Source: Verrucomicrobia bacterium S94 (lineage in GTDB: Bacteria > Verrucomicrobiota > Kiritimatiellia > Kiritimatiellales > Pontiellaceae). From it: DNA of 64,000 bases. The stretch covers positions 1,178,001 through 1,242,000 of the forward strand of contig CP036201.1 in NCBI GenBank assembly GCA_004299845.1, written 5' to 3'. A program made the translations under genes and the position numbers. The first letter of the stretch is position 1, and every line of letters begins with the position of its first letter. The notes under the pieces were generated by a model. The model worked only from the letters and a program-made list of their open reading frames with translations, did no database searches and was not told where the DNA came from. Shown here in pieces: positions 1 to 37,829 of this stretch.

Positions 1-1215
1 TAAAACGGTGTGTCGTTCCGCCGGTTTCCGCCCCTGGAAAACGGGGATTAAGTTGAGTGAATCTTTGATGAGATTGCGATCAACCGGCCGGCCGGCCAGC
101 GTGGCGACGGTTGCCACCATATCGTGGGAAACAATCGGCTCATCGCAAACCGAACCCGCTTTGATTTTTCCCGGCCAGACCGCAATGAACGGTACGCGGT
201 GTCCGCCTTCCATAATGGAACCTTTGCTGCCGCTGAGTCCGTTGGAAGTGTTATGTCCGGCTTTTTTCATATCCTTATCCCAGGACAGTCCGCCGTTATC
301 GGAGGTAAAGACAAAGAGCGTATTGTTGTATACCCCGGCCTCTTTCAGCGCGCGAACCAGCATGCCGACCTGTACATCGAGCTCTTTGATCATGTCACCG
401 TGTTTGCCCGGCGTGGTTCCCCTGATTCCGACCCCGTCCAGCTCTTCCGGCGGAGCGTGAGGGATGTGTACAGCCTGCGAACAGTAATAGATAAAAAAAG
501 GCGCGGCGGCATGAGTAGAGATGTAGGCGACGGCTTTTTCAGCCAGCATCGGTCCGGCCAGAGTCGGATCCCAGTTGGAGTCGGCTATGCCGCCGCGATC
601 GAGATGTTTTTTTGAGGTGGAATAATGTGTCTGGTCGGCATCAATTTCGGTGATGACCGAATCGTCGGCCAGTTTCATCCAGACCTGGTTTTCATAGAAG
701 GCAAAGGGAATGTTCTGAATGCCTTCGGGCAGTTCGAGCGCATAATCAAAACCGAAGTGAAGGGCTCCGCCGGACAGTTTTTTCCAGTCGATCGGATACC
801 TCAGCCAGGAACTGCCCAACCCCCACTTTCCGAAAAATGCAGTCTGGTATCCGCCCGCTTTAGCCAATCGGGCAATCGTGGTGAATCCACCCTTATCGAT
901 GCCGGATTTTTCTTCCGGCTTCCAGACGCCGAACGGTTTGTGATTCCGGTAGGAATAATTTCCGGTCAGCATTGAAAAGCGGGTGGGGGCGCATAGTGAT
1001 GCAGGAGAGTGAGCGTCGGTAAAGTGCATGCCTTCAGCAATCAGACGGTCAATGTTCGGCGTTTCCACCGTGGGGACTTTTCTGCCCTTCGAACGTTGGT
1101 AAAAGCTGATATCACCCAGACCGATATCATCGGCCATCACCAGAACCACATTCGGTTTTCCGTTTGCGAGCACTGCGCACAGAAGCACTGCCGTACCTAT
1201 TCCGATTCTAAACAT
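1..1215 (-). CDS. Secreted Cys-type sulfatase (partial, 3' end off window)
   Basis: Type I sulfatase of the alkaline-phosphatase fold that hydrolyses sulfate esters, here probably on an exported polysaccharide. The reading frame starts at the ATG at 1215 and is open to base 1, so at least 405 codons are present and the C-terminus is missing. A short Sec signal (MFRIGIGTAVLLCAVLANG) is followed by the metal-binding start KPNVVLVMADD. The maturation motif C-A-P-T-R is present with Cys75 as the residue converted to formylglycine. Downstream are GKWGLG near residue 125 and the DNGG metal site. The gene lies just downstream of, and on the same strand as, an IclR regulator, and backs onto the galactan-degrading run. 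The exact sulfatase subfamily and sulfate position are not decided. Confidence 0.93.
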   Translation of the reverse strand, partial: MFRIGIGTAVLLCAVLANGKPNVVLVMADDIGLGDISFYQRSKGRKVPTVETPNIDRLIAEGMHFTDAHSPASLCAPTRFSMLTGNYSYRNHKPFGVWKPEEKSGIDKGGFTTIARLAKAGGYQTAFFGKWGLGSSWLRYPIDWKKLSGGALHFGFDYALELPEGIQNIPFAFYENQVWMKLADDSVITEIDADQTHYSTSKKHLDRGGIADSNWDPTLAGPMLAEKAVAYISTHAAAPFFIYYCSQAVHIPHAPPEELDGVGIRGTTPGKHGDMIKELDVQVGMLVRALKEAGVYNNTLFVFTSDNGGLSWDKDMKKAGHNTSNGLSGSKGSIMEGGHRVPFIAVWPGKIKAGSVCDEPIVSHDMVATVATLAGRPVDRNLIKDSLNLIPVFQGRKPAERHTVL

Positions 1216-1338: not shown

Positions 1339-2108
1339 TTAACCCGGATAGCCGAATTTCCGTGAAATCGTTAGGGCGGATTCCACAACCTTTTTTCCAA
1401 CCATCGGGAATTTTTTCTCGGTGAGATTAAACGAAGTGCCCGTGGCCCAGATCATGGCAATCGGATAGCCGGCGTGGTCGCGGATGACGGTGCCGACGCA
1501 GTGACAGCCTTCGAATTCTTCGGCCAGATCTGTGGCGTAGCCTTTTTCCCGTATTCGGGCAATTTCGGCCATCATGGCTTTTCTGGTGGTGATGGTGCGT
1601 TCATTGAATTTGGTTAAGGTGATTTTTGAAAGGATTTCGTCGCGTTCGTCATCGGGCAGAAAGGCCAGCAGGGCTTTGCCCGGAGCACCGGAGTGCAGAT
1701 TGAAACGGGAGCCTAGATCGACGGAGAATTTAAAGGGGCTTCCTCCGGTAGCCTGTTCGAGAATGACGCCTTGTGTCCCTCGAGCACAGCGAGATAAACA
1801 GACGCGTTGACGGCATCGCGCAAGTGGAGCATTTCGCTGAACGATGCTTCGACAATTTTTCGGTCACCCATCGCGGTTGCTCCGAGCGACATCATTTTGC
1901 GGGTAAGAAAATAACGCCTCGTTGGCTCATCACGCGCAATATACCCATGATCAATCAGCGTTTCTGTAATTCGGTACACGCTGTTTTTTGAGATTTCGAG
2001 CGCATCAATCATCTCCTTTTGGGTCATTCCCTGAGGGTGATCCGCCAAGAGCTGAAAAATATGCAGAGCTCGTTCCAGATTGGGGACGTGGTATTTGCTG
2101 TCTGCCAT
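1339..2108 (-). pseudogene. IclR-family regulator split by a single-base frameshift
   Basis: IclR-type transcription factor with an N-terminal winged HTH and a C-terminal effector domain. The first frame starts at 2108 (MADSKYHVPNLERALHIF) and carries the HTH over about residues 5-70. It breaks after VLEGHKA. The effector domain then continues in a second frame (GVILEQATGGSPFKFSVDLG, then GAPGKALLAFLPDDE) down to the stop at 1339. Adding one base near 1767-1775 restores a 256-residue protein, the usual IclR length, so exactly one base seems to be missing. As written the product stops early, after 131 residues. It may be a real recent mutation or a sequencing/assembly error. It diverges from the dihaem gene at 2206 and precedes the sulfatase at 1215, so it is likely their regulator. 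Confidence 0.85.
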
Positions 2109-2146: not shown

Positions 2147-2175
2147 TTCAAAACGGGTGAACGTACGTCTATATT
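2147..2175 (+). promoter_or_regulatory. Candidate promoter of the dihaem/galactan run
   Basis: A possible -35 TTCAAA (2147-2152) and -10 TATATT (2170-2175) are separated by 17 bp in the divergent gap between the IclR gene and the gene at 2206. The self-complementary ACGTACGT at 2161-2168 lies inside the spacer and could be an operator. This is pattern matching only; sigma-factor preferences of this organism are unknown. Confidence 0.3.
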
Positions 2176-2205
2176 ATGAATGGTATTTAGACAGTAGGGA
2201 TATAT

Positions 2206-4884
2206 ATGAAACCAAAGGCATTATGGATAGGAAAATGCGTGCAAAAAACGGCACGCTTCGGGATGTTGATTTTTCTTGTTATTCCGATGGCAGGAAGTGG
2301 CCGGGAAAACTCTGCAGCCTCGCTTCGCGCTGCTATTGAATATCTATCCGCAACTTTTGGAGAGGAGTATCCGCATGGTGCAGAATATCTTCGCCGGTTG
2401 GAGCAGATTTCAGATGAAACAACCCCGGCTTTTACAAACCTGCAGCGAGAGGCATTGCTGAATCATCCTCATGTGAAGGGGTATGATTGGTTGGTAGAGG
2501 TGCGGAATCAGTATTGGGGCAGTCATGGGCCGATCAATACCATGTTCCAGAACGGGGATGTGAACAAAGGTGACCTTGCCGGTATTAAGCATTGGCACAG
2601 TCACGGCGGCCGTCTGGAAGTGATATCTATTCAGGATGACGGATCCGTTGTGCGTAAAGCCGTGCTGGCGGAGGAGCCTGAGGGGACGCTGCGTGATGTG
2701 GATGTGCATTTTGACGGGAAGAAAATTCTTTATTCGATGCGGCGCAATAAAGAGGATGATTATCACCTTTATGAAATGGATCTGGAGACCCGGGAAACCC
2801 GTCAGTTGACATTCGGTTCCATGATTTCCGACGTGGATCCCATCTATATGCCGGATGGAATGATTATTTTCAGTTCCACCCGCGATCCGAAGTTCTGTCA
2901 ATGCAACCGTCATATTTCCAACAATCTGTTTTCCATGGAAGGCGACGGAGCGAATATTCAGCAGATCAGTTTCAATGCTCTGGCTGATTTTCATTCCAGC
3001 CTGATGCCCGACGGCCGTGTACTTTACAGTCGCTGGGAGTATGTGGATCGACATTTCGGTCCGTCGCTGGGGCTGTGGACGACCAATCCCGATGGAACCC
3101 GCCATGCACTTTTTATGGGTAATAATGCCTGGAGCCCAGGGTTTATAGGGGATGCGCGGGTGATTCCGGGGACCGATCGGGTGGTCTGTATTTATGGGGC
3201 ATGCCATGATTTGCCGTGGGGGGCTTTGGCTGTTGTGGATCGTTCGAAAGGGCTGGAGGGTCCGGAATCCGTCATTCATATGTGGCCGGAATCGGGGCGT
3301 GCTCTGATTTCGCCGGATGATGAAAGTAATCAGGACATGAAGCATGCATGGCATATCGATAAATTCCGCAAACTGCCGGTGCGTTATGAGGATCCCTATC
3401 CGGTTCACCATGTGGAAGCCGGAGAGGGTGGCGGGTATTTCTTTCTGGTGGCGAAGGCGTTGGACGGGCCGTTGGTCGCCTATAAAAATGCATGGAAAAA
3501 GGATCCGGTCAATATGGCGATTGTTCTGGTGGATGTGTTCGGTAATGAGGTGGTGGTTTATGAACTTGATGAACCGCATCAGAGTCCGTACGGACCGGTG
3601 CCGCTGGCGGCGCGTCCGAAGCCGCCTGTAATACCGAATGCGGTTGATTTCTCCCGGGATTACGGACAGCTTTATGTGAACGATGTTTATCTGGGCACAG
3701 GTAACGAGATGACCGGGCTGAAACGCGGCGAAATTAAATATCTGCGTATTGTCGAAGCCCCGCCGCGCAGAATGTGGACGGAAGGACAGATCTGGGGTAT
3801 CGATGCCGCGCAGGTGACCGCAATGAACTGGAACCTGACCAATAATAAAAAGATTCTCGGGGATGTCCCCGTGGAAGAAGACGGATCGGCATTTTTCAGC
3901 ATTCCGGCAGATACTTTTGTGCAGATTCTTGCGTTGGATGAAAATAAACAGATGGTTCAGGCGATGCGATCCGGCACCGTGGTGCGTCCCGGGGAAACCC
4001 AGGGCTGTATCGGTTGTCATGAAAACCGGCTCGATGCTCCCTCGGCCACCAATCCGTTTCCGTTGGCCATGCGGCGCCCGCCGAGCCGGCTGGAACCCTG
4101 GCTGGATACGCCGAGTGTGGAGGACGCTAAACCCTTTAATTATCTTACCGATGTGCAGCCGGTTTTTGATCGGCACTGTGTCAGCTGCCACGACTACGGT
4201 ACCGAAGGGGGCGAAGTGCTGAATCTGTGCGGCGACCTGAGCTTGCCGTTTAATGTTTCCTATACTGAATTGATGGCTAAATCGGGATTACGTTATGAAG
4301 GCGTCGGCGAAAAGCTGGTGAATGCTGTACAGGACGGTCCGCCCGGCGTTTTACCTGCCTATGCCTGGGGATCGCATCGTAGCAAACTGGTTCGTGTGTT
4401 GCAGGAAGGGCATTATGATGTGAGTTTATCCGACGACGAGATGCACCGCATTATCAGCTGGATTGATGTGAATGCCGTCTATTATGGAGCCTATGCTTCG
4501 TATTACAACGGTCGGAATCCGATCCTTTCGCTGAAGGATGGATGGAACAAACAGAAAAAAGTGATGCTGGGCATGGAAAACCGGAAAAAAATTGCGGAAT
4601 ATTATGTGAAACATGGCCATTTGATTAATTTTTCGCGACCAGAGCTTAGTCCGGTTTTGAGAAAAATCCAGGATGAGACACAACGAGCGGAAGTGTTGGC
4701 CGTTTTACAGGAGGCATCTGCTCTTCTTGCAGAATATCCGCGGGAAGATCAGACGAATTCCAACGTGGCACAATCCGCAATCGACAAGCATAATGATGCG
4801 CGTTTTATGTCGACCCGCAGGGCTAAAGAAGAGGCCGTTAGGGCCATTCTTGAGGGCCGGAAGGTCTACCCGTTTAAAGAGTAG
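2206..4884 (+). CDS. Hydrazine-synthase-alpha-like dihaem cytochrome c protein
   Basis: Large exported protein (892 aa) resembling the HZS alpha subunit family: a TolB/WD40-like beta-propeller followed by c-type haem segments. A hydrophobic stretch near residues 20-33 (MLIFLVIPMAG) looks like a signal; the ATG coding residue 20 is an alternative start. Propeller-type repeats include DVDPIYMPDGMIIFSSTRD with a nearby C231-x-C233. Two CxxCH haem sites are seen at C601-C604-H605 and C658-C661-H662, and C-terminal histidines could be distal ligands. From memory, the catalytic haem of Kuenenia HZS-alpha uses a tyrosine four residues after the CxxCH histidine; here that position is Leu609, which argues against hydrazine synthesis. 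No anammox partner genes are nearby. A role in secreted redox chemistry beside the glycosidases is a guess. Confidence 0.8.
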   Translation: MKPKALWIGKCVQKTARFGMLIFLVIPMAGSGRENSAASLRAAIEYLSATFGEEYPHGAEYLRRLEQISDETTPAFTNLQREALLNHPHVKGYDWLVEVRNQYWGSHGPINTMFQNGDVNKGDLAGIKHWHSHGGRLEVISIQDDGSVVRKAVLAEEPEGTLRDVDVHFDGKKILYSMRRNKEDDYHLYEMDLETRETRQLTFGSMISDVDPIYMPDGMIIFSSTRDPKFCQCNRHISNNLFSMEGDGANIQQISFNALADFHSSLMPDGRVLYSRWEYVDRHFGPSLGLWTTNPDGTRHALFMGNNAWSPGFIGDARVIPGTDRVVCIYGACHDLPWGALAVVDRSKGLEGPESVIHMWPESGRALISPDDESNQDMKHAWHIDKFRKLPVRYEDPYPVHHVEAGEGGGYFFLVAKALDGPLVAYKNAWKKDPVNMAIVLVDVFGNEVVVYELDEPHQSPYGPVPLAARPKPPVIPNAVDFSRDYGQLYVNDVYLGTGNEMTGLKRGEIKYLRIVEAPPRRMWTEGQIWGIDAAQVTAMNWNLTNNKKILGDVPVEEDGSAFFSIPADTFVQILALDENKQMVQAMRSGTVVRPGETQGCIGCHENRLDAPSATNPFPLAMRRPPSRLEPWLDTPSVEDAKPFNYLTDVQPVFDRHCVSCHDYGTEGGEVLNLCGDLSLPFNVSYTELMAKSGLRYEGVGEKLVNAVQDGPPGVLPAYAWGSHRSKLVRVLQEGHYDVSLSDDEMHRIISWIDVNAVYYGAYASYYNGRNPILSLKDGWNKQKKVMLGMENRKKIAEYYVKHGHLINFSRPELSPVLRKIQDETQRAEVLAVLQEASALLAEYPREDQTNSNVAQSAIDKHNDARFMSTRRAKEEAVRAILEGRKVYPFKE

Positions 4885-4972: not shown

Positions 4973-6811
4973 ATGAAATACAGCTTGGTTTTGGGAATGA
5001 TTCTGCTGCCGGTAGTGCTGCCGGCCGAGGCTTTGGTAGAGGTAAAGTTACATCCGTCGGTGGTCCGAAATATCGGCGGGGTTACGGAATTTGACCGGAA
5101 TCAGTTTATTACGATTCACGAAGGCCCCCGGAATTCGCGGCTTAAGGAATATTACAGCTATCTTGAAGATGAACTGGATGTACGTTACGGCCGTGACGGA
5201 GGTTCTCTTTCCGGTGCGGCGCGCGGTGTTCCCGCTGATCCGGACCGGCCTGATTTTCCTGATATCGAGCAGATGAAATTGCGGGGAGCGAAGCATATCC
5301 AGCGTTCTGAATGGCGTCGGGATGCCGATCCTTTACAGATTAGGAATACGATTATATGCACGCATCCCGAACGGATGCATCCTATGCCGGAAAATGATTA
5401 TACGGAATGGGGACCGCGTACAATGGAGGGGGTGGCGGAATTTTATGCGCATTTTCTGAAATATTATTTTACCGATGAAACAAGGCCGGCATATCTGGAA
5501 GTGCTGAATGAACCTTTTGTGCATGCAGATGAAATCGGTACCACGGCGGAACGGATGGCGGAACAGCATGTGCATGTGGCCAAACGGGTGCGGGAGCTGA
5601 ATCCGGACGTTATGATCGGCGGGTATACCGCCGCCTGGATTGAAGTGGAGCAGCATGATTTCCGTCATTGGTTCAATTGGGAGAAGATGTTTATCGATAC
5701 GGCTGGGGAAGAGATGGACTTTTTCTCCTACCACACGTACGACGGGGTCAATGTGACCGGCGAACCGCGCAACCGCACCGGGGCGAATACTGAAGGCATC
5801 ATGGACCTGTTCGATACCTACAGTTTTCTCCGGCTGGGTGCGGCCAAACCGCAGGTGATTTCCGAATACGGGAAAATACCCGAAGGCGGCATGGCGAATC
5901 ATATCTACAGCTCCGAGCGCACCGCCGGGCAGCTGTATTCGCTCAACGGTCAGCTGATTATGTTTATGGATCATCCCGACCGGATCATGAAAACGGTTCC
6001 TTTTATTCTTGGAAAAGGACTCTGGACTTATCGGCCCGACCGTGAAAAGGAGGCCGCCAATCCGTTTCTGCTGTGGCGCATGAAATCCGACGGTTCATTT
6101 GTGGAGACGGAGCTCTCGCTGTTTTACCATTTCTGGAAGGGAGTTTCCGGGCAATGGAGATGGAGTTCGTCATCCAATCCAGACGTGCGGGTGCATCTTC
6201 TGGCGGATGGAAAGAAACTGAACCTGATTCTGGTCAATCTTGATTCAAAAGAGAAAAAGGTGAACCTGACCGGGCTTCCGGATATCGGAAACGGGCGGGT
6301 GTCTTTCCGAAGTCTGGAAACCCATGGTAAAGCGCCGCGTTTTCATGAAGGGGAACTGAAACGTGTTCCGGACACAGTGAAGCTGCACCCGGGACACAGC
6401 ATGCTGCTGAATCTGGAGTTGGAAAAAGCGATGCCGACGCGCCGGACCGTTCGGGAACACCGAGTCTATGCCACGGATTACATGAAGGATATTGTGGAAG
6501 GCGAAGCCGTCGCTTTTACATTTCCGGAAACCCCGACCGGAAAAGGATCGGCATTTCTCCGGATTACTCCGGGACGTGAAAAGGGCCTGGCGATTCTTCC
6601 GGATCAGGTGCGGTTCAATGGAGAGCCGCTGGAGGTTCCGGACAACTGGGCCGGAGATGAACAGAAGGGGCGTTCCACCTTTTTCGGAACCCTTGCTGTA
6701 CCGGTTCCGGTGAATCTTCTCCGGGAAGTCAACGAAGTGGAAATTGTTTATCCCGATTCCGGCGGCCGGCTTGCCTGTGCGGTTCTTCAGGTCAATCTGC
6801 TCGAAGAGTAG
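4973..6811 (+). CDS. Secreted clan GH-A endo-hydrolase, GH86-like (agarase/porphyranase type)
   Basis: Likely endo-acting glycosidase on algal galactan (612 aa). It begins with a Sec signal (MKYSLVLGMILLPVVLPAEA). The N-terminal part contains FITIHEGP and the RYGRDGGSLSG segment. The clan-A acid/base motif LEVLNEP has Glu180, and a later VISEYG supplies the probable nucleophile near residue 300. The last 200 residues look like accessory beta domains. Overall layout and motifs resemble GH86 beta-agarases/beta-porphyranases; this family call is from recognition, not alignment, and another clan-A endo-hydrolase is possible. It sits 88 bp after the dihaem gene and before a GH2 enzyme, consistent with endo- then exo-cleavage of the same polymer. 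Confidence 0.7.
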   Translation: MKYSLVLGMILLPVVLPAEALVEVKLHPSVVRNIGGVTEFDRNQFITIHEGPRNSRLKEYYSYLEDELDVRYGRDGGSLSGAARGVPADPDRPDFPDIEQMKLRGAKHIQRSEWRRDADPLQIRNTIICTHPERMHPMPENDYTEWGPRTMEGVAEFYAHFLKYYFTDETRPAYLEVLNEPFVHADEIGTTAERMAEQHVHVAKRVRELNPDVMIGGYTAAWIEVEQHDFRHWFNWEKMFIDTAGEEMDFFSYHTYDGVNVTGEPRNRTGANTEGIMDLFDTYSFLRLGAAKPQVISEYGKIPEGGMANHIYSSERTAGQLYSLNGQLIMFMDHPDRIMKTVPFILGKGLWTYRPDREKEAANPFLLWRMKSDGSFVETELSLFYHFWKGVSGQWRWSSSSNPDVRVHLLADGKKLNLILVNLDSKEKKVNLTGLPDIGNGRVSFRSLETHGKAPRFHEGELKRVPDTVKLHPGHSMLLNLELEKAMPTRRTVREHRVYATDYMKDIVEGEAVAFTFPETPTGKGSAFLRITPGREKGLAILPDQVRFNGEPLEVPDNWAGDEQKGRSTFFGTLAVPVPVNLLREVNEVEIVYPDSGGRLACAVLQVNLLEE

Positions 6812-6868
6812 CTGTCAATTTATCATATATCATTTACGCAAACGTATGTTTTCCGCCGGTCGTGCGGC

Positions 6869-6882
6869 ATCGTATAAACGAT
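6869..6882. promoter_or_regulatory. Operator-like palindrome before the GH2 gene
   Basis: ATCGT-ATAA-ACGAT is a perfect 5-bp inverted repeat with a 4-bp spacer, 27 bp before the chosen GH2 start. A GCAAACGT core lies about 30 bp further upstream. It could be a LacI/AraC-type site; no binder is identified. Confidence 0.25.
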
Positions 6883-6909
6883 CCTCAATTTACCGGGGAT
6901 TTTATATAC

Positions 6910-9900
6910 ATGAGATGGATCACGCTGATACTGGCGCTTTTCACGACAGCCGTTGCTCCGGCCGGACGAACCCGGCTGGGCTTTGATGAAAACTGGAAAT
7001 TTAAATGGGGTGACGGGGCCGGTCAGGAGGTCCCGGCGTTCAATGACAGCAGCTGGCGCACCCTGAATCTGCCGCACGACTGGAGCATCGAGGGCCAATA
7101 CAGCGAGAACCATCCCATGGGGGATCAGTGCGGTTATCTTCCCGCCGGCATCGGCTGGTACAGAAAAACCATTGATGTCGATCCCGCATGGAAGGGGCAG
7201 CATGTGGAGATTATTTTTGACGGCGTATTTATGAATTCCACTGTGTGGGCGAACGGCCGGAAACTCGGGACACGGCCTTACGGCTGGATCACATTTGCTT
7301 ATGATATCAGTGACCTCGTTCAGGAAGAGGATTCCATCACGTTTGCGGTGCGGGTGGATAATGAAAAACAGCCGTCAGCCCGCTGGTATACCGGAAGCGG
7401 AATTTATGCGCATACCTGGCTGGAAATCAAAGGGAAGGTGCATGCAGAACGCGATGGCATTTTTGTCCGCACTTCCGGCAATACCGTTTCGATAGATACC
7501 GAGGTGAATAACACCGATGAAACCGGCCGTGCCGTGAATCTGCAAACCTCTGTTTTTGATGCCGACGGAAAACAGGTTGCTCATATAAAGACCAGTTTTT
7601 TTGCCGTAGCCGGAGAACTTCAGGCAGTGGCAGGGACGATTTCGCTGGAGCAGCCTGCGATGTGGTCTCCGGAGTCGCCGTATCTCTATAAAGCGGTCAG
7701 CGAAATCTATGCGGATGGAACGTTGAGCGACCGCGTGGAAACCCGGTTCGGCTTTCGCGATATTGAGTGGAAACCGGAAAGCGGCATGTGGCTGAACGGG
7801 AAAAACATCAAACTGCGAGGAATCTGCAACCATCAGGATGCCGGTGCGCTGGGTGCCGCTGTTCCGGATAAAATCCTGCGTTTTCGGATTCAGCAGCTGA
7901 AGGATATGGGGGTGAACTGTTTCCGAACAGCGCATAATCCGCAGACGCCGACGTTTTATGAGCTGTGTGATGAAATGGGCATGATGGTGATGGATGAAAT
8001 TTTCGACGGCTGGGGACGAAAAGCCTATGAGGATTACGGGGCGCGGTTTTTTGATACGTGGTGGGAACGGGATCTGACCGACTGGATCCGACGCGACCGG
8101 AATCATCCGTCGGTGGTGCTATACAGTGTGGGCAACGAAACCCACGGCGATGTGGCTCCTGCGCTGGTGGCGAAATGCCATGAACTGGATCCGACGCGAC
8201 CGGTGACTTCCGGCCATTCCAATCAGGAGGATATGGATATTGCCGGCTTTAACGGGCACAGCGAAAAGATGGGCTGGTGGGACGAATTTGAAGAAATGAA
8301 TAAGGAAAATCCGCGGGTTTTCATCGGAACGGAAAATACACACACCTGGCAGGTGCGGGGATTCTACCGTACGAAAACCTGGTTCCGGGATGGATTCCCT
8401 AATGAAAAACAGAAACCTTATCCCTGTCCTGATCTCACGGAGGAGGAGATTTTCACGTATGACTGGATTCGGGATGGGGATCGCTCCAGCGGAAAACAGA
8501 TTTTCAATTCGAGTTATGATAATGCCATGGTCCGTCTGACCGCGCGGAAGAACATTGAGCAGCTGCGGGATATCCCGTATTATGCCGGTTCTTTCCGCTG
8601 GACGGGACATGATTATATCGGAGAAGCGGGATATGTGCATGGCGGATGGCCCTTTAAAGCATTCATGGGCGGGGCGATCGATCTGGCAAATTTTGAGAAA
8701 GATCTTTTTTATCTCTATCAGAGCCAGTGGACGGAATCGCCGATGGTGCATATTCTCCCGCACTGGACGCATCCGAATATGAAAGAGGGAACAAGGGTTC
8801 CGGTTCAGGTGTATTCTAACTGTGAAGAGGTTGAACTGTTTTTCAATGACCGTTCGCTCGGACGGCAGAAACCGGGCAGAACATGGGACAAAATGCAGTG
8901 TCAGTGGATGGTGCCGTGGAAGCCGGGTACGCTGCGTGCCGAGGGTTTTGCGGACGGGAAACCGGTGGCCCGGGAGACGATCCGGACGGCTGATGCGCCG
9001 GCTCGGATCAGGTTGTCGGTTGACGGGGAGCCGTTGAAGGAAACAGGCCGTGATCTGGTTCAGGTTCGTGTGACCACAACGGATGCAAAGGGCGAGTTTT
9101 ATCCGTATGGAGAAAACCGCACCTGGTTCAAAGTGATTGGCAACGGGCGGATTAAAGCGCTGGATAACGGCAGTCCGGTTGATGTGGAACCGCATTACGG
9201 TACGGACAACCGCATTGCATTTTATGGTTTAACGCGTGCCTATATTGAAGCTGTTGGCGATGGGGATGTGGCGCTGCTGGCCGCCTGTATTCTGGGAGAG
9301 AAAAAACTGAAGTTTTCTGATCAGGTGTCCATTGGTACGGATCTGCTCTCACTTCGCGGCCCGCTTCCGGAGATTGATACGGAGATTTTCTATACAACCG
9401 ACGGCCGGGAGCCGACGACAGAGTCAGTGCCCTATACCGGAGCGTTTAAGGTCGAACCCGGAACCACGGTGAAGGCGCTGGTTGTGGTGGACGGGAATCC
9501 GGTTTTAACACTGGAAGAACGTTTTGCCGACGATGAAGGATTTATCTGGGAAGGCGGAGGTCAGCCGACGACTTCTCCCGGAGCCCAGGCGGAAACCGCC
9601 CATTTCAGCGGTGCGTCGGTGGAGTCCTGGGGGGAATATTATCGCGGTAAAGGATATCTTAAATTCCGAAAGGAGGCCGGGGCCTATGTGGAATGGTATC
9701 AGGAAAATGATGGTGGAGCGGGTCCGGCGAAACTGGCTATTCGCTATGGAGGACGGATTAAAGATGAAAAAGGACATACCGTTAAACTGATGATCAATGG
9801 AGAAGTCGTCGACAAAGCACTGCTGCTGCCGAATACGCGCCGTATCGGAAAGGAATGGTCCACTATCAGCGTTCCGGTAGAAATCGGACGTGGAGCGAAT

Positions 9901-9963
9901 ACCATCCGGATTGAACCCAATGCCGGAGACGGTCTGTTAATAGACGAAATTATAATTCGATAA
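6910..9963 (+). CDS. GH2 beta-galactosidase with C-terminal accessory domains
   Basis: Secreted GH2 glycosidase (1017 aa), probably releasing beta-galactose from galactan oligomers. The start is taken at 6910 because a clean signal peptide (MRWITLILALFTTAVAPAG) begins there; an in-frame ATG at 6862 would add 16 non-signal residues. Order of domains: sugar-binding jelly roll (about 20-190), Ig-like domain (about 195-295), TIM barrel (about 300-600), then a DUF4982-like segment with VELFFNDRSLG. Further on is a chitobiase-type strand (IFYTTDGREPTTES), and the protein ends in a beta-sandwich resembling a carbohydrate-binding module. Acid/base Glu410 lies in SVGNETHG and the likely nucleophile is Glu475 in FIGTENTH. 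It is followed 57 bp later by the DUF1080 gene. Sugar specificity within GH2 is not certain. Confidence 0.93.
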   Translation: MRWITLILALFTTAVAPAGRTRLGFDENWKFKWGDGAGQEVPAFNDSSWRTLNLPHDWSIEGQYSENHPMGDQCGYLPAGIGWYRKTIDVDPAWKGQHVEIIFDGVFMNSTVWANGRKLGTRPYGWITFAYDISDLVQEEDSITFAVRVDNEKQPSARWYTGSGIYAHTWLEIKGKVHAERDGIFVRTSGNTVSIDTEVNNTDETGRAVNLQTSVFDADGKQVAHIKTSFFAVAGELQAVAGTISLEQPAMWSPESPYLYKAVSEIYADGTLSDRVETRFGFRDIEWKPESGMWLNGKNIKLRGICNHQDAGALGAAVPDKILRFRIQQLKDMGVNCFRTAHNPQTPTFYELCDEMGMMVMDEIFDGWGRKAYEDYGARFFDTWWERDLTDWIRRDRNHPSVVLYSVGNETHGDVAPALVAKCHELDPTRPVTSGHSNQEDMDIAGFNGHSEKMGWWDEFEEMNKENPRVFIGTENTHTWQVRGFYRTKTWFRDGFPNEKQKPYPCPDLTEEEIFTYDWIRDGDRSSGKQIFNSSYDNAMVRLTARKNIEQLRDIPYYAGSFRWTGHDYIGEAGYVHGGWPFKAFMGGAIDLANFEKDLFYLYQSQWTESPMVHILPHWTHPNMKEGTRVPVQVYSNCEEVELFFNDRSLGRQKPGRTWDKMQCQWMVPWKPGTLRAEGFADGKPVARETIRTADAPARIRLSVDGEPLKETGRDLVQVRVTTTDAKGEFYPYGENRTWFKVIGNGRIKALDNGSPVDVEPHYGTDNRIAFYGLTRAYIEAVGDGDVALLAACILGEKKLKFSDQVSIGTDLLSLRGPLPEIDTEIFYTTDGREPTTESVPYTGAFKVEPGTTVKALVVVDGNPVLTLEERFADDEGFIWEGGGQPTTSPGAQAETAHFSGASVESWGEYYRGKGYLKFRKEAGAYVEWYQENDGGAGPAKLAIRYGGRIKDEKGHTVKLMINGEVVDKALLLPNTRRIGKEWSTISVPVEIGRGANTIRIEPNAGDGLLIDEIIIR

Positions 9964-9980
9964 GTCAGGTGTCCTGTTTA

Positions 9981-9993
9981 GAATGTGACATTC
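9981..9993. promoter_or_regulatory. Short palindrome between GH2 and DUF1080 genes
   Basis: GAATGT-G-ACATTC is a perfect 6-bp inverted repeat with a 1-bp centre in the 57-bp gap. It has no T-tract and so is not a terminator. It may be an operator or chance; the following gene has its own strong ribosome site (CAGGAG). Confidence 0.2.
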
Positions 9994-10020
9994 ATTCTTT
10001 TAACCAACAGGAGATGAACC

Positions 10021-10878
10021 ATGAAACGATATTTCACTGCAACACTTGTAATCGGTCTGTCGCTGGTCTGCACAGGATTCGCCGGAAACTGGAAGACACT
10101 GTTTGATCAGGAGTTATCGAACTTTGAAGTCTGGATGGGGATTCCCCATGACTCAGTTGAGGGGCTGCCTCCGGGAACACCCACTTCGCCGGATTGTCAT
10201 AACGGGATCCCGATGGGGCTGAATAATGACGTTAAGAATGTTTTCAGCATAATTGAGGAAAACGGCGAACCGGTACTGCATGTCAGTGGTGAAATATACG
10301 GCGGCCTGACCACCCTTGAATCTTTTGAAAACTATCATCTGCAGATTATGGTGAAGTGGGGCGATAAACAATGGGCACCGCGAGAGAACACGTTACGTGA
10401 CAGCGGCATTCTCTACCATTGCCACGGTGAACACGGGGCCTTCTGGAAGGTCTGGAAATCGTGCCTGGAATGTCAGGTTCAGGAATCCGATCTGGGCGAC
10501 TTTATCCCGTTGGCCGGTCCGCGTGCGGAGGTCCGTACGGCGGTCGTCGAGGGAACAAAACGCCGGCGCTATGATGCCGAAAGCGAAGAGTATACCGGCG
10601 GCTATATCAGCGCCTGGCCGGAAATGGATAAACCGCATGGTGAATGGAACCTGATGGAAATTTATGCTCTGGGCGATACTTCCGTTCATGTGGTTAACGG
10701 CAAGGTCGTTATGGTGGTTGAAAATGCGCGTCGCGCTGATGGTAAACCACTGACTAAAGGACAGATCCAACTGCAGTCCGAGGCCGCTGAATGTTTTTAT
10801 AAAGGAATGCGCATCCGTTCAATCGATGTGCTGCCGATGGAAATTACAAAACAAATTCGCTTGAAAGGAACTGAATGA
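10021..10878 (+). CDS. Secreted DUF1080 (3-keto-glycoside hydrolase-like) protein
   Basis: Exported protein of 285 aa with a Sec signal (MKRYFTATLVIGLSLVCTG ending near AGN). The mature part starts NWKTLFDQELSNFEVW, the typical opening of the DUF1080/PF06439 concanavalin-like fold, and contains NYHLQIMVKWG, DSGILYHCHGE and CLECQVQE, all family landmarks. Members are reported as 3-keto-disaccharide hydrolases or occur as domains beside glycosidases. A CAGGAGATG ribosome site supports the start. The stop overlaps the next start by 4 bp (ATGA), so it is translationally coupled to the GH42-like enzyme. The FAD oxidoreductase at 27.2-29.1 kb could supply keto-sugars, but that is speculation. Confidence 0.88.
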   Translation: MKRYFTATLVIGLSLVCTGFAGNWKTLFDQELSNFEVWMGIPHDSVEGLPPGTPTSPDCHNGIPMGLNNDVKNVFSIIEENGEPVLHVSGEIYGGLTTLESFENYHLQIMVKWGDKQWAPRENTLRDSGILYHCHGEHGAFWKVWKSCLECQVQESDLGDFIPLAGPRAEVRTAVVEGTKRRRYDAESEEYTGGYISAWPEMDKPHGEWNLMEIYALGDTSVHVVNGKVVMVVENARRADGKPLTKGQIQLQSEAAECFYKGMRIRSIDVLPMEITKQIRLKGTE

Positions 10879-13202
10879 ATCGACGCCGCTTTACCGCATT
10901 GACCGCTGTGGGGGCCTGTATTTTCCCCGGAATTGGAACTGCTGCCCGGAATGAGTGGCTGGCCTTGAATCGTAGAGTTGAGGCCAAACAGCAGCAGCTC
11001 GGCCATTTAATTCGAGATGCGCAGCAAAGAGGGTACGTGGTGGACTATGCGGTGGCGTCGTATCAGATTATCGGTCTTTTTATTGTAGCGGCCAATCATG
11101 ATTATGAACATCGGGAACGAGCTGCCGAAATTTTTGCCCAGCGATGGCACTATCGGAAAATGGCCCCGGAATATGCGGCCGATTTTGCGATCAAAGAACT
11201 CAACAGCTGTATTGAGGTGGCGGATTATGCTATCGGTGAGTTACAGCGGCAGATGTCCGGGGAAATCAAACCGGTTTCGCCGCCGGATTTAACCGTTGGA
11301 ACCATGAAGCTGGAACGGAAAGCCTACGAGCTGGAAGGCAGAAAGGTATTTCCGAGCTCATTGGTCTGGACCCCTGCACGGAAAGAGGAGCTGAACTGTT
11401 TTGGACGTATTGGAGGAGGGTACCTGCAGATTACGCAGTTGCAGCAGGATGGGACTCCCGGGCCGCATTTGCATTCCAGACTGAAAGCGCTGGCCGAGCA
11501 GAACGCTTTCCATATGTCGCCGCGTGTGTTTCTGACCGGACATAATACGCCGGGCTGGATGAAAGAAAAGTATCCGGAAGTGCAGTACGGCGGGCGGAAC
11601 TTTACCACCTATGATATCGACAGTCCGCTGATCCGCGAATGGATCAGAAAACTCTATTCCTCTTTTCTTCCGGAATATGCAGAGGCCTGTAAATCGTTCC
11701 CCATGGTGCATCTGCTGGCTAACGAGCCGCATTTCGCTACGCGAAAAGGGGGATGGAAGGCGGGGAACGGTCTGTCGGATACCACCATGGAAAAATGGCA
11801 TCGCTGGCTGGAAAAGAAGTATTCCACAATTTCCGAATTGAACGGGATTTACGGTACGGACTATGCCGATTGGGATCAGGTGCTGTTTTATGGGCTGGAA
11901 CCGGAACAGCGGCAGATAGATCCGGCGTTGCGCGGAACTCCGGTTTGGTATGACTGGGTGCGGTTTAATCATGACCGGGTGAATGAGTGGTTTACATTCC
12001 TGAAAAGCGAAGCGCAGAAAAATGACAGCGGTCGTAATGCGCCGGTATCGATTAAGGTGCTCGGTTACAGCCTTTCCAAGAGCGAGCGTGATGGCGGAAT
12101 GGATATGGAATATCTGACCGACCTGCAGGAGGTGATGGGTGCAGATTTGCGCTGTGCACCGCAGGGCGCGCAGTTTTTCGGCAAGCATGAAGAGGGGATG
12201 GATCCGAAAACGGGATGGCAGGCGCATTTTGCCTATGAATGGTCGGAGCAGTCGATGTTTCTGGACTGGTCGAAATCGATGTATCCCGAAAAAGTTTTCT
12301 ACGATTCTGAATGGCATGGTTTCAGTGCAGTCAGCTGGCGCCATTTTAATATGAATCGTGACTATGTTCGGTCGGCCCTGTGGTTGGCGTTTACACATGG
12401 CATGGGCATGATCAATGCCTGGCTTTGGGGGCGGGGAACGGACGGAGCACTGAGAGCTCAGGGGGATCATATCGGTGAACTGTCGGTCCAGCCGATTGCC
12501 GTGGATGCGTTCAGCCGGACAATGAAAGAGCTGAATGCCCATGCGGAATATGTGGTGGGCATTCAGCCTGAACATCGTGATTTCTGGATTTATTACTGTG
12601 AGGAAACGGCCATTCAGGATGAAACCTATACCCACTTCATGCAACAGATTTATGAGGCATTGAAACTGCTCAATTTTACGGTCGGTTTCACAACGCCATC
12701 GAAGATCGGCGGGCTGGATGCCGAAACGCAGACGGTGATTGTTCCGCCGACAGCTTATATTCTCGATAGAAGTCTTGAAGCTCTGAAAGCGTTCGGCGGG
12801 CGGCTTGTTCTGATCGGTGCTGAAGAGAGTTTCCTAAAAGATGAATATGGGCGTGACCGTTCCGGGATTTGGCAGCCGGAACCGTTTTCCGTCATTCCTA
12901 AAGGAGAGTGGCCGGATCTGCTGCAGCCCCTGGAAACGGTACTGCGTCCCGTTTCCACTCCTCTTCTTCTGCCGGTTTCTGTTACCAACTTCAATGGTGA
13001 AAAGGCGATAGGGGTGAGCCTGTTCATGAAGAAGGACCCGGAAAGCGGCCGCATGATCATCGCCCTCAATAATATCAGCAAAGAGGTGCGTGTGGTTTCT
13101 CTTCCGGACAATTCAACAGCGGTGGATCTCGTTATTCAGCAACGTTGCGAAAACCGCCTTGTTCTGAAACCTTGTGATGTGCGGCTGATCATGGTTGCGT
13201 AA
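10875..13202 (+). CDS. GH42-like clan GH-A glycosidase, paralogue A
   Basis: Exported enzyme of 775 aa beginning MNRRRFTALTAVGACIFPG, a Tat-like twin-arginine leader. Residues about 25-130 form a helical N-terminal region, followed by a TIM barrel and a C-terminal flavodoxin-like (beta-galactosidase trimerisation type) domain around 600-700. The acid/base is Glu284 (LLANEPHF) and the nucleophile probably Glu479 (DSEWHGFS). The segment WHRWLEKKYSTISELNGIYG is typical of GH42. Two further copies of this architecture are encoded at 31.2-36.1 kb on the other strand. Likely acts on beta-galactosides or agar-type oligosaccharides, but the helical N-terminus is not standard GH42, so a newer clan-A family is possible. 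Confidence 0.85.
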   Translation: MNRRRFTALTAVGACIFPGIGTAARNEWLALNRRVEAKQQQLGHLIRDAQQRGYVVDYAVASYQIIGLFIVAANHDYEHRERAAEIFAQRWHYRKMAPEYAADFAIKELNSCIEVADYAIGELQRQMSGEIKPVSPPDLTVGTMKLERKAYELEGRKVFPSSLVWTPARKEELNCFGRIGGGYLQITQLQQDGTPGPHLHSRLKALAEQNAFHMSPRVFLTGHNTPGWMKEKYPEVQYGGRNFTTYDIDSPLIREWIRKLYSSFLPEYAEACKSFPMVHLLANEPHFATRKGGWKAGNGLSDTTMEKWHRWLEKKYSTISELNGIYGTDYADWDQVLFYGLEPEQRQIDPALRGTPVWYDWVRFNHDRVNEWFTFLKSEAQKNDSGRNAPVSIKVLGYSLSKSERDGGMDMEYLTDLQEVMGADLRCAPQGAQFFGKHEEGMDPKTGWQAHFAYEWSEQSMFLDWSKSMYPEKVFYDSEWHGFSAVSWRHFNMNRDYVRSALWLAFTHGMGMINAWLWGRGTDGALRAQGDHIGELSVQPIAVDAFSRTMKELNAHAEYVVGIQPEHRDFWIYYCEETAIQDETYTHFMQQIYEALKLLNFTVGFTTPSKIGGLDAETQTVIVPPTAYILDRSLEALKAFGGRLVLIGAEESFLKDEYGRDRSGIWQPEPFSVIPKGEWPDLLQPLETVLRPVSTPLLLPVSVTNFNGEKAIGVSLFMKKDPESGRMIIALNNISKEVRVVSLPDNSTAVDLVIQQRCENRLVLKPCDVRLIMVA

Positions 13203-13266
13203 TTACGAATATTTTATCCGCATTTCCGGGTATTCGCATAGCGGCATCTGTTGCAGTATAAATGGT

Positions 13267-14601
13267 ATGAATAAGCTTTTTGTACTGATCAGTTTGCTCC
13301 TGTGTTCCGGCTCCTTTGCTAAAGTTAATAAGTCGCAGTATGTGATCCCGGATGGTCTTGTGGAAGGCGGTGCATTCATTGACCGGTTTCTGCCGGTTCC
13401 TTATGTCGAGGAACCGCGGTCAGATCTCTGGGGTGGAGGAAATGTGCTTCCTCGGGACGCCGCAAATGGGATAGAGGATGCGGAATATTCCTATTGGGGG
13501 GGTAATATTGTTCGCGGGGATGATGGAAAGTTTCACCTGTTTGTCTGTCGATGGCCGGAAAACAATGTGAAAGGCGGCGGCAGAAAATCCGGACATCATA
13601 CCTGGTGGAGTTCAGTGATCGTACATGCGGTGAGTCCTCAGCCGCTCGGTCCGTATAAAGTGATCGATGAGGTTGGCAAGGGGCATAATCCGGAAATCTA
13701 CCGACGTAGCGACGGCTCGTACGTTGTCGGTGTGATGGGGGACAAAGCCTACACCGCGCCGACGCTGAGCGGGCCATGGGAGCAAACAGAAACCACCTTC
13801 GACTGGCAGGGTGAAAAGTTAAACACGAGCAATCGCACCTATGTCCCGCGTGAAGACGGCTCGTTGCTGATGATGAATAAAAATGGCTATATATTCGTCA
13901 GCGAAAATGGCGAGGAGCATTTCAAACAGGTCACTCAAAACTCTGTGTATCCGAAAATTAAAAAACATTTTGAAGATCCGGTTATCTGGAAGGATGAGGT
14001 GCAATACCATTTGGTGGTGAATGATTGGGACAAGCGGCACGCGTATTATATGCGCTCGCCGGACGGCATAAACTGGAAATGGGCACCGGGGTATGCCTAT
14101 GACCACAGAATTATGGTTCACGAGGATGGAATCTGCGAAGCGTGGTATAAACTGGAGCGTCCGAAAGTACTGCAGGATGAATTCGGGCGCGCGGCCTATA
14201 TGAATTTTGCGGCCATTGATTGCAGAAAAGATGATGATGTTGCGAATGATAATCACAGCTCGAAAAATATTGTCGTCCCGTTGCGGGTACCCCGCCGGAT
14301 TGAACTTTTAAACCGCGAGCCGATTACCGCTGAAACGGAGACGATCCGACTGCTGATCAAATCGGAGCCCGGATTCGATCCTCTGAATAATGTCGATGTA
14401 AATTCCTTGCGTCTCGGTGCTCCGGAAGCGGTCAATTTCGGGCGGGGGTGTAAAGCGATGAATCGGGAAGCATCCGGTCAGAATCTGGTGGTTACTTTTG
14501 ATGCCAGCGGGCATGAAATTACGGATGAAAATTTCACGGTAAAATTAATCGGCCGGGATACTGCCGGTGAATTGCTGTTTGGTTATGCACGGTTGCATTA
14601 G
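13267..14601 (+). CDS. Secreted five-bladed beta-propeller glycosidase-like protein (GH43/GH117-like)
   Basis: Protein of 444 aa from the ATG at 13267, chosen because a clear signal peptide (MNKLFVLISLLLCSGSFA) starts there; an upstream in-frame start at 13195 overlaps the previous gene and lacks signal character. Propeller-blade sequences include YWGGNIVRGDDGKFHLFVC, GHNPEIYRRSDGSYVVG, FEDPVIWKDEVQYHLVV and DGINWKW. The conserved acidic residues within such blades suit a GH43/GH32/GH117-type active site. GH117 enzymes remove terminal anhydro-L-galactose from agar oligomers, which would fit the locus, but I cannot assign the family firmly. It stops directly at the start region of the GH29 gene. 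Confidence 0.78.
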   Translation: MNKLFVLISLLLCSGSFAKVNKSQYVIPDGLVEGGAFIDRFLPVPYVEEPRSDLWGGGNVLPRDAANGIEDAEYSYWGGNIVRGDDGKFHLFVCRWPENNVKGGGRKSGHHTWWSSVIVHAVSPQPLGPYKVIDEVGKGHNPEIYRRSDGSYVVGVMGDKAYTAPTLSGPWEQTETTFDWQGEKLNTSNRTYVPREDGSLLMMNKNGYIFVSENGEEHFKQVTQNSVYPKIKKHFEDPVIWKDEVQYHLVVNDWDKRHAYYMRSPDGINWKWAPGYAYDHRIMVHEDGICEAWYKLERPKVLQDEFGRAAYMNFAAIDCRKDDDVANDNHSSKNIVVPLRVPRRIELLNREPITAETETIRLLIKSEPGFDPLNNVDVNSLRLGAPEAVNFGRGCKAMNREASGQNLVVTFDASGHEITDENFTVKLIGRDTAGELLFGYARLH

Positions 14602-14610
14602 GTGAAGAAG

Positions 14611-16227
14611 ATGAGAAAAATTCCGGTTACATGGTTAATGATATCCTCTGTTTCCGCATTGTTTGCGGGAGAAAAATATGAGCCGACCTGGGAATCGCTG
14701 GTGAACTATGAAGCGCCGGAGTGGTATGAAGATGCGAAACTCGGTTTCTGGGTGCACTGGGGCGTTTATTCGGTCCCTGCATTTATGGGAGATCATGCGG
14801 GCGAATGGTATGGCCGCTGGATGTATGTGCATGAAGGGCAGAGTACACGGCATGATCAGGGACTGGCGACGGCGCGGCACCATCGGGAAACCTACGGCGA
14901 CCCCGGTACGTTCGGCTATAAGGATTTTATTCCGATGTTCAAAGCGGAACATTTTGATCCGGATGAATGGGCCGATCTCTTTGTTATGGGCGGTGCCAGA
15001 TTTTTTACGATGATGGGCGCGCATCATGACTGTTTCCTTCTGTGGGACAGCAAACTCTCCAAATGGACTGCGGCCAAAATGGGGCCGAAAAGGGATCTGG
15101 TGGGTGAAATAGAAAAGGCCGTTCGGAAGAAGGGCCTGAAGTTCGGCGTTTCCAACCACACGGCATTTAATGTGCAGTTTTTTCAATGGAATCATATTAA
15201 CGGCTATGATGCGAAAGATCCGGCCAACCGGGATCTGTACGGAGAACCGGTTATTCTGGAAAAGGGGCTTGAACATGCCCGGGTTAAACCGGAAGAGCAG
15301 ACCGAAAATAAGGGCCGCTGGGCCTGGTTTGCGCGTACACGCGATAAGGTTCGGCCGAGCCCGCGTGATGTACAGCGCTGGATCGATCGCACCAAGGAGC
15401 TGGCGGATCTGTATCGTCCGGATCTCTACTACTTCGACTGGGGACATCGTCTGGAGGAATATGAGCCGGGACGCCGGGAGTTCGGCGCGCATTACTACAA
15501 CCAGGCGATTGAATGGGGAAAAGGTGAATACGGTGCTCCGGGTGTGGTGCTGAATTACAAGTCGCGCTGGTACAAACCCGGTTCGGCGGTGCGCGATTAT
15601 GAGCGCGGCGGAATGGATAAAATCGGGGATATGGTCTGGCAGACGGATGACTGCGTTTATGACGATCATAACTGGAGTTATGTCCCGGGTGTGGCCATCA
15701 AGCCGACGAATACCATTGTTGATCAGTTGATGGATATTATCAGCAAACGCGGCGTTCTGATGTTGTCGTTTGCGCCGAAAGCGGATGGCACGTTTCCGGA
15801 AGACCAGAAAAAAATGATGCGGGAGCTGGGCGACTGGCTGAACATTAACGGCGAGGCGGTTTACGGCACCCGGCCGTATGAAGTCTACGGAGAAGTCGGT
15901 GATCAGTGGTATGAAAAGGATGTGCATGGCCGAATAAAGATGGAGGCGACGAAAGAGGATATCCGGTTTACGCGAAATAAAGAGAATAACATCCTCTATG
16001 CCACGCTCCTGAAATGGCCGGGAGAACATGTGTTAATTGAAACATTGGCAGGAGCGGATCTTTCCGGGGTGGAGTCTGTCATGTTGCTCGGGAAGCAAAG
16101 GAAGCTTGATTGGACCGCTACTGAGCAGGGGATGTCGGTTTCATTGCCGCCAAGACCGGATTATGGTTTTGCTTATCCGATCCGTATTACATTCCGCGAC
16201 CGTATTGTTTCGCCAAAGAATCGCTAG
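14611..16227 (+). CDS. GH29 alpha-L-fucosidase (or alpha-L-galactosidase)
   Basis: Exported retaining GH29 enzyme of 538 aa. The start is put at ATG 14611 because AGGTG sits 6 bp before it; a GTG at 14602 is in frame but overlaps that ribosome site. Signal peptide is MRKIPVTWLMISSVSALFAG. The GH29 entrance motif KLGFWVHWGVYSVPAF is present, and YYFDWG gives the nucleophile Asp276. The C-terminus (from about 440) is a beta-sandwich. GH29 members may cleave alpha-L-fucose or its 6-hydroxy analogue alpha-L-galactose, a constituent of porphyran, so the neighbouring galactan enzymes make alpha-L-galactosidase activity plausible. The previous gene ends 9 bp upstream. Confidence 0.93.
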   Translation: MRKIPVTWLMISSVSALFAGEKYEPTWESLVNYEAPEWYEDAKLGFWVHWGVYSVPAFMGDHAGEWYGRWMYVHEGQSTRHDQGLATARHHRETYGDPGTFGYKDFIPMFKAEHFDPDEWADLFVMGGARFFTMMGAHHDCFLLWDSKLSKWTAAKMGPKRDLVGEIEKAVRKKGLKFGVSNHTAFNVQFFQWNHINGYDAKDPANRDLYGEPVILEKGLEHARVKPEEQTENKGRWAWFARTRDKVRPSPRDVQRWIDRTKELADLYRPDLYYFDWGHRLEEYEPGRREFGAHYYNQAIEWGKGEYGAPGVVLNYKSRWYKPGSAVRDYERGGMDKIGDMVWQTDDCVYDDHNWSYVPGVAIKPTNTIVDQLMDIISKRGVLMLSFAPKADGTFPEDQKKMMRELGDWLNINGEAVYGTRPYEVYGEVGDQWYEKDVHGRIKMEATKEDIRFTRNKENNILYATLLKWPGEHVLIETLAGADLSGVESVMLLGKQRKLDWTATEQGMSVSLPPRPDYGFAYPIRITFRDRIVSPKNR

Positions 16228-16253
16228 AACAAAAAAGTTTAAGGAGCTGTAAA

Positions 16254-17745: not shown

Positions 17746-17889
17746 AGAAACAAGAACCCAACAAAAGCTTCTCGTTTTTGAGGAGATGAGACTCTTATGT
17801 GCCATCAAACTCGTTGCTGTAAATGTAGCGCTGAAGGTGTCATTGCGCCTATATGCCATTGCGTTTTAGATATACGTAATTTCTGCACG

Positions 17890-18630
17890 TTAAAGAATCA
17901 GGAACAACGTTTTAGAATCCTGGTCGCCGCTGAATGAAAAAAGATAAACGCAACGATTCCGGGTTCCGGTATCGCGATCCCCCCGAGAAGATGAAAATCC
18001 GGTATACCAGGTGTCGGTTTCATAGATAGATGTATCCAGAGTAACTCCGGTCTGAACCAGTCTGGACAGCGACTCTCCAGTGCGGGCATTCAGCAGTTCC
18101 ACCTCAACGGACCAGTCCGCTGGCGTGTCTCCTTTCTCCATGATCATCGTCATGGTCAGACGATCAGAAACGGCACTTTCTCCAAGGCCGATTTTCTCTT
18201 CAGGGACAGGACTGGAAAGATAGAGTTTGTTGTCACTGGACTTAAAACCGAATTTATAAACAGGAGAATCTAGTGTGCGGATAAAAAAACCGCGTAAAGC
18301 ACCTAATCCCGATGGTCGTTCATTGATCATCAGACTGAAAATGTCGGCACTTCCTCTTCCGTTCAATGTAAATCCGAAATCGGCTGAAATGCTGCAGGAT
18401 GTGTTTTTCTGTGCATCAACCGGTATTCCATAGAATGATGATTTCCAGGTTTCAGAACTCAGGATAAATCCTCCGCGGTTGAAATCAATGACACCGCCTT
18501 CTGAAAGCCATGATTGCTGCCCTTGCAGGTTGCCTTCGGTAAAACCGCCTTTTTTAGAAAAAAGGCTGGTTTCAGCCCCGGAGATTTCAGCCGTGCAGAT
18601 TATTGCTGCAAGTATATAAACTGATTTCAT
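17890..18630 (-). CDS. Secreted protein of unknown function, beta-sandwich-like
   Basis: 246 aa with a Sec signal (MKSVYILAAIICTAEISGA) and a good ribosome site (GAGGTAA). The remainder is rich in short beta-strand-like segments and polar residues (GGVIDFNRGGFILSS, SSFYGIPVDAQ, FGFTLNGRGSADIFSL), suggesting a lectin/concanavalin-type fold. I recognise no family and no catalytic motif. No PEP-CTERM or other sorting tail is seen. It sits between the two polysaccharide blocks, downstream of the AraC/LacI-type regulator on the same strand, and has its own terminator at 17704-17745. It may bind extracellular glycan, but that is inferred only from context. Confidence 0.65.
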   Translation of the reverse strand: MKSVYILAAIICTAEISGAETSLFSKKGGFTEGNLQGQQSWLSEGGVIDFNRGGFILSSETWKSSFYGIPVDAQKNTSCSISADFGFTLNGRGSADIFSLMINERPSGLGALRGFFIRTLDSPVYKFGFKSSDNKLYLSSPVPEEKIGLGESAVSDRLTMTMIMEKGDTPADWSVEVELLNARTGESLSRLVQTGVTLDTSIYETDTWYTGFSSSRGDRDTGTRNRCVYLFSFSGDQDSKTLFLIL

Positions 18631-18742
18631 TCTTACCTCGTTTTATAAACAGGTAAGGAGAATAGGAGCTCTGGCGGTGCGGTAACTAGAGGTGATTACG
18701 AAATATATATATTTGATTTTGCCACCAATAAAATACAGGGGT

Positions 18743-31124: not shown

Positions 31125-31150
31125 CACGCTTTTTCTCCTGTCAATATTAA

Positions 31151-37707: not shown

Positions 37708-37829
37708 CTTCATCCTTGATTCGGTACCGAAAAAGTCCGGTATGCATACCCGAGAGAACCCGGAGTGTCCAATAGTTGTTCACTTTTTATTGTTGGCTGC
37801 TTAAAAGGGAAAGGCCATCTTCTGCGTTT

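Follow-up and report, generated by a model that had tools for sequence, protein, structure and literature searches.

The gene at 2206-4884 and its surroundings

The window (the whole 64,000-nucleotide stretch of DNA analysed here) carries a complete open reading frame with exact bounds at 2206-4884, whose 892-residue product is related to the alpha subunit of hydrazine synthase (HZS); we refer to it as the window alpha (Table 1). It heads an eight-gene run of porphyran/agar type, in which the seven genes behind it (4973-17705) are co-directional, with spacing that ranges from overlap to 88 bp; the first six genes of this operon occur in identical order in a sister genome (G002, L033). Shared direction, tight spacing with glycan enzymes and conserved order together mark this as a polysaccharide locus. 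The first-pass annotation had described the neighbours as galactan enzymes rather than anammox genes, and the families identified here (GH86-type, GH2, PF06439, a weak GH42 and GH29) bear this out. Scans for promoters and terminators gave no more matches than were obtained in shuffles.

Table 1. Features at the head of the window (positions are those of the window; residues are those of the window alpha)
Feature	Position	Strand	Evidence or remark
Sulfatase (PF00884)	1-1215	-	Extends past window edge; first of upstream sulfatase run
IclR-family regulator	1348-2108	-	Divergent from alpha; frameshifted near 1752-1779
Palindrome GTCTA-N16-TAGAC	2167-2192	+	Just 5' of alpha start codon, between alpha and IclR
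HZS-alpha-like dihaem c protein, 892 aa	2206-4884	+	ORF, Pfam, profile, AlphaFold2, Foldseek
Beta-propeller part (about residues 130-470)	2593-3615	+	Model secondary structure, TolB-type propeller matches, conservation
PF18582 HZS_alpha middle domain (residues 508-606)	3727-4023	+	Pfam E 1.6e-35
Haem alpha-I motif C601-I-G-C604-H605; His+4 = Leu609	4006-4020	+	Aligned to CSGCH (His587) of 5c2v
Haem alpha-II motif C658-V-S-C661-H662; probable distal ligand His736	4177-4191	+	His736 aligned with alphaHis772
GH86-type beta-porphyranase-like	4973-6811	+	PF18206, PF18040
GH2-family beta-galactosidase-like	6862-9963	+
PF06439 (3-keto-disaccharide hydrolase / DUF1080) protein	10021-10878	+
Weak GH42-like protein	10875-13202	+	E 1.3e-6
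Secreted protein	13195-14601	+	No Pfam/NCBIfam match; nearby sulfatase loci repeatedly encode similar proteins
GH29-type alpha-L-fucosidase	14602-16227	+
Final gene of co-directional run	16254-17705	+	No Pfam match

The PF06439 gene of the operon suggested a 3-keto-sugar pathway, in which the window alpha would act as the electron acceptor from a glycoside 3-dehydrogenase; this idea was set aside because PF06439 does not rank among the 25 families most often seen beside alphas. Further along the window, a second gene cluster includes a strong match to the NCBIfam aceric acid hydrolase (29106-31127, minus strand; 745 bits, below the cut-off of 950) alongside a sulfatase at 25564-27165. A separate gene at 36277-37713 (minus strand) encodes 478 residues that match only the first 464 residues of the nitrite reductase large subunit NirB, that is, its reductase part without the sirohaem part.

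The divergent IclR gene is split, its N-terminal half lying at 1713-2108 and its C-terminal half in a different frame, and the orthologue in G002 is intact (256 aa); the window copy is either a pseudogene or the product of a sequencing error. The palindrome in front of the alpha start codon is the sole exact copy in the window genome and is conserved in G002 (with one change) and in G019. Written as GTYTA-N16-TAGACA, it occurs once in the window genome and once in G019, both times in an alpha promoter. The G019 alpha belongs to a separate alpha clade and is only ~47% identical to the window alpha, whereas its IclR is 88% identical over 114 residues, so that regulator and operator are better conserved than the alpha under their control. 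We propose that the palindrome is a candidate operator to which the IclR protein would bind. More widely, an IclR gene lies within three genes of an alpha at 10 of 40 Kiritimatiellales loci, as against none of 303 control genes.

Relation to hydrazine synthase

A hydrophobic signal segment at the N-terminus predicts that the window alpha is secreted, and a cytochrome c assembly gene is found in the window genome. The PF18582 match scores 122 bits (Pfam gathering cut-off, 26.6), and a profile built from relatives of the window alpha matches 5c2v_A, the alpha chain of Kuenenia HZS, at E 2.8e-44. The AlphaFold2 model (pLDDT 86.5, pTM 0.90) has the same chain as its top solved match in Foldseek (E 5.9e-28), and VIA-align superposes model residues 87-773 on the 5C2V alpha with Z 32.3 and an rmsd of 3.0 over 580 residues; lower-ranked structure matches are to TolB and other propellers, and cover the propeller part only. 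The window alpha thus has the arrangement of Kuenenia stuttgartiensis HzsA (5C2V/5C2W), with a propeller, PF18582 and a C-terminal cytochrome domain carrying two c-haem sites (CxxCH). The first-pass annotation had proposed this layout from the propeller and the two CxxCH motifs, and both the profile comparison and the structure prediction that it called for agree. Its suggestion that the fold is widely reused also holds, with at least 569 tblastn-confirmed relatives among GTDB representatives. A comparison with an 84% orthologue (dN 0.097, dS 1.60, dN/dS about 0.06) indicates that the window alpha is under strong purifying selection.

Some alphas carry accessory domains (F5/8 type C, FGE-sulfatase-like and similar). 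Two HZS-alpha-like proteins, at L039:6958-10665 and L040:12610-15726, have a C-terminal part that is apparently an FGE-sulfatase domain (PF03781), a domain matched by 2 of 21 alphas; both genes are preceded by another alpha and followed by a beta-gamma gene.

In HZS, haem alpha-I is ligated by a tyrosine, and His587 sits on zinc (PMC12607021, PMC12758564). Using literature numbering (5c2v chain number plus 27), the profile alignment pairs His587 with His605, Cys303 with Asn307, and His772 (chain residue 745) with His736 of the window alpha. The zinc ligand Cys303 is therefore absent, with Asn307 at its position; it is likewise missing in Scalinduaceae (PMC12758564). The profile alignment to 5c2v ends at the CxxCH, so that for the Ser590-Tyr591 region we can speak of position +4 after the histidine, where tyrosine is absent. 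The first-pass annotation was correct in reading Leu609 at this position, and the ligand tyrosine that would have counted against it was found in none of the 65 + 21 aligned homologues. The special alpha-I site of HZS is thus absent from the window alpha, for which we infer a canonical His-ligated haem alpha-I. At the second haem, a histidine occupies the alphaHis772 position in 62 of 65 homologues, and with His736 as predicted distal ligand haem alpha-II of the window alpha would be bis-His.

In the propeller part, C233, R276-W277, Y279 and H334 are invariant across all aligned sequences of both sets, and D281 is nearly so (Glu in two aligned sequences); Kuenenia HZS alpha (5C2V) has different residues at the C233, R276-W277, Y279 and H334 positions. 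Going by the alignment, two of the stretches that hold these residues flank the Cys303 position, and hence may line the alpha-I pocket. The window alpha scores 52.9 bits against the NCBIfam hydrazine_alpha equivalog (NF052339; cut-off 800), lacks a tyrosine at His+4, carries Asn307 where Kuenenia HZS has Cys303, and has no anammox setting; as judged from its sequence, it is an HZS-alpha homologue but not a hydrazine synthase.

The fused beta-gamma protein, a probable partner

Beside several alphas lies a gene for a second dihaem protein of about 600 residues, in which HZS beta-like and gamma-like parts are fused: a single protein at L034 12945-14753 matches both 5c2v_B (E 1.1e-25) and 5c2v_C (E 9.9e-17). 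These proteins match NCBIfam hydrazine_BC at 126-173 bits, below the cut-off of 1250, and consist of a YVTN propeller followed by a CCP/MauG-type dihaem domain (PF03150). The C-terminal half thus resembles the MauG/MbnH/bacterial di-haem cytochrome c peroxidase family, from which beta-gamma differs in its fusion to a YVTN propeller and its link to HZS-alpha-like proteins.

There is no beta-gamma gene in the 64-kb window, and the window alpha is accordingly not co-localised with one; unlike in Kuenenia HZS, beta-gamma is here both fused and unlinked to alpha. A single beta-gamma gene is present in the window genome, at C1:1794898-1796673; it lies 614 kb from the alpha and belongs to a block also present in G002, G019 and G003. 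The first-pass annotation had overlooked this partner. The palindrome was not found beside beta-gamma genes, and co-regulation through it is thus unsupported. A 67%-identical orthologue of the window alpha (G028, L034) does adjoin its own beta-gamma, one of eight loci at which we see such adjacency (L034, L039, L040, L045, L113, L153, L154 and L157); by a quick tree method, beta-gamma-adjacent alphas are scattered over the alpha tree, with at least 10 forced label changes. In a Phycisphaerales MAG (L139:9356-13801, plus strand) the two are joined in one 1481-residue protein, with alpha at residues 137-881, beta-gamma at 901-1481 and four CxxCH motifs.

At the level of the order, beta-gamma is found in all 14 genomes with an alpha and in 3 of the 29 others (P 9e-9); in a sample of 195 genomes from the phylum the figures are 36/37 and 3/158 (P 1e-34), and collapsed by genus they are 15/15 and 2/92 (P 2e-16), counts that are phylogenetically non-independent, a dependence which the collapse to genera lessens but does not remove. 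The exceptions in the phylum sample are G067 (94% complete), with an alpha and no detected beta-gamma, and G122 and G126, with the reverse. Copy numbers are strikingly unequal: genomes with both hold at least 179 alphas and 42 beta-gammas, with alphas reaching at least 24 per genome and beta-gammas numbering one to three, usually one. Fifteen genomes combine a single beta-gamma with two or more alphas, and in no genome with both does beta-gamma outnumber alpha. Other PF03150 dihaem proteins number at most one per genome in the nine searched (none in the window genome), which leaves few alternative partners for many alphas. Taken together, co-occurrence, adjacency, fusion and copy numbers argue strongly, though indirectly, that alpha and beta-gamma act together.

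Two further observations concern the surroundings of beta-gamma genes. In the window genome, some 7 kb separate the beta-gamma gene (L062, 9366-11177) from a pair of small multihaem genes (17763-19773) with five and four CxxCH motifs, which look like NrfA/NrfH and are also near in L063. A gene for ~370 residues adjoins the alpha/beta-gamma pair in members of two separate families within the phylum (L181:10652-11776 and L186:2921-4027); judged by eye only, the two proteins seem to start alike and to be of Rid/chorismatase type.

Possible function and wider significance

Synthesising these findings, we favour a reading in which the window alpha serves as one of several exchangeable alpha subunits in a common, predicted HZS-like tetrahaem complex, and on balance we consider this probable. 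Most likely, the secreted dihaem alpha would dock on the fused beta-gamma as alpha does in HZS, and we infer such binding for the window organism too. Many PVC bacteria would seem to possess one conserved beta-gamma 'engine' together with several divergent alpha 'heads', of which some belong to polysaccharide operons and others have an IclR regulator to themselves. The window alpha would be made alongside the porphyran/agar enzymes, which suggests that the redox step of the complex takes place at the cell surface or in the periplasm during the breakdown of red-algal galactan, presumably with a redox substrate that derives from the glycan, or by acting on the glycan.

How far the glycan connection extends is a separate matter. 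Among operon neighbours of Kiritimatiellales alphas, 34 of 97 are sulfatases, as against 8 of 110 control genes drawn at random from four of these genomes, an enrichment whose gene-level P of 6e-7 is inflated by runs of sulfatases; counted per locus, it is 14/32 against 24/103 control genes (P 0.04). In other phyla only 7 of 121 neighbours are sulfatases, and a general polysaccharide association is rejected there. The repeated association with glycosidases and sulfatases that the first-pass annotation anticipated is consequently upheld for some Kiritimatiellales loci and fails elsewhere. As the link is modest per locus and absent outside the Kiritimatiellales, a polysaccharide role may be limited to some paralogues: it is real for the window operon and plausible for the Kiritimatiellales, but is not a property of the family as a whole.

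The strongest competing explanation is a peroxidase-type complex, or one detoxifying a small molecule (H2O2, NO or hydroxylamine), that leaves the glycan untouched and is co-induced with the operon as algal surfaces are oxidative. The CCP/MauG-like gamma part would fit such a role, as would the cultured Pontiella species, which are anaerobes listed as catalase-negative (PMC10880615), and the simple alpha-beta-gamma pair outside polysaccharide loci in genus g42 (L181; genomes of 2.7-3.3 Mb); we nevertheless think it somewhat unlikely, in that it leaves unexplained both the diverged alphas, up to at least 24 per genome, and the separate polysaccharide operons. Less likely again is the first-pass proposal that alpha alone, without beta-gamma, oxidises or senses polysaccharide: its position at the head of an operon conserved in two species, the accessory domains of some alphas and the invariant propeller residues are all in keeping with it, but it must contend with an almost complete dependence on beta-gamma throughout the phylum sample, with adjacency and fusion, and with the lack of polysaccharide association outside the Kiritimatiellales. 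That the window system is an overlooked hydrazine synthase, or carries out related N-N chemistry, we regard as scarcely credible: the three-part architecture and four haems do recall HZS, but both NCBIfam scores fall below their cut-offs, the Tyr591 and Cys303 equivalents are missing and the relatives of the window organism are sugar-using anaerobes (PMC10880615). The same conclusion is reached for other homologues in PMC12758564.

Returning to the exchangeable subunit, part of its background is already established. Non-anammox HZS-alpha homologues lacking Tyr591 (clades I-IV), occurring as alpha plus beta-gamma and mostly in Planctomycetota and Desulfobacterota, have been described (Hagglund et al. 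2025, December; PMC12758564), and they share with the window system PF18582, the absence of the ligand tyrosine (at His+4 in the window alpha), a fused beta-gamma partner and anaerobic hosts. The pairs treated there are co-localised, whereas the window alpha sits in a porphyran operon, unlinked from a single beta-gamma; clade I is reported to lack His772, the equivalent of which (His736) the window alpha keeps. Its text makes no mention of Kiritimatiellota or polysaccharide operons and, in the sections consulted, does not discuss the many alphas per beta-gamma seen in relatives of the window organism; to this extent the porphyran-operon and many-to-one setting is new. The paper on Pontiella agarivorans reports no transcriptome and leaves cytochromes unmentioned. 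Among the papers searched, none pairs Kiritimatiellota with hydrazine synthase.

To our knowledge, hydrazine synthase was long believed to be without relatives, and its origin is debated. Our data indicate that its architecture is common in PVC bacteria, where alpha subunits have proliferated against a single beta-gamma. We tentatively raise the possibility, towards which we lean less than towards the complex itself, that HZS represents one specialised form within a large, modular family of secreted tetrahaem complexes. In such a family a common beta-gamma engine would serve numerous alpha heads able to replace one another, each coupled to its own glycan operon or environmental signal, and the complexes would perform a hitherto undescribed redox step as anaerobes degrade polysaccharide. 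The one-to-one version in g42 offers a simple setting in which the question would be testable. Should the alphas prove to be exchangeable heads on one engine, this would give direct access to the ancestral chemistry behind HZS, and would point to a redox step in the breakdown of seaweed polysaccharides by anaerobes.
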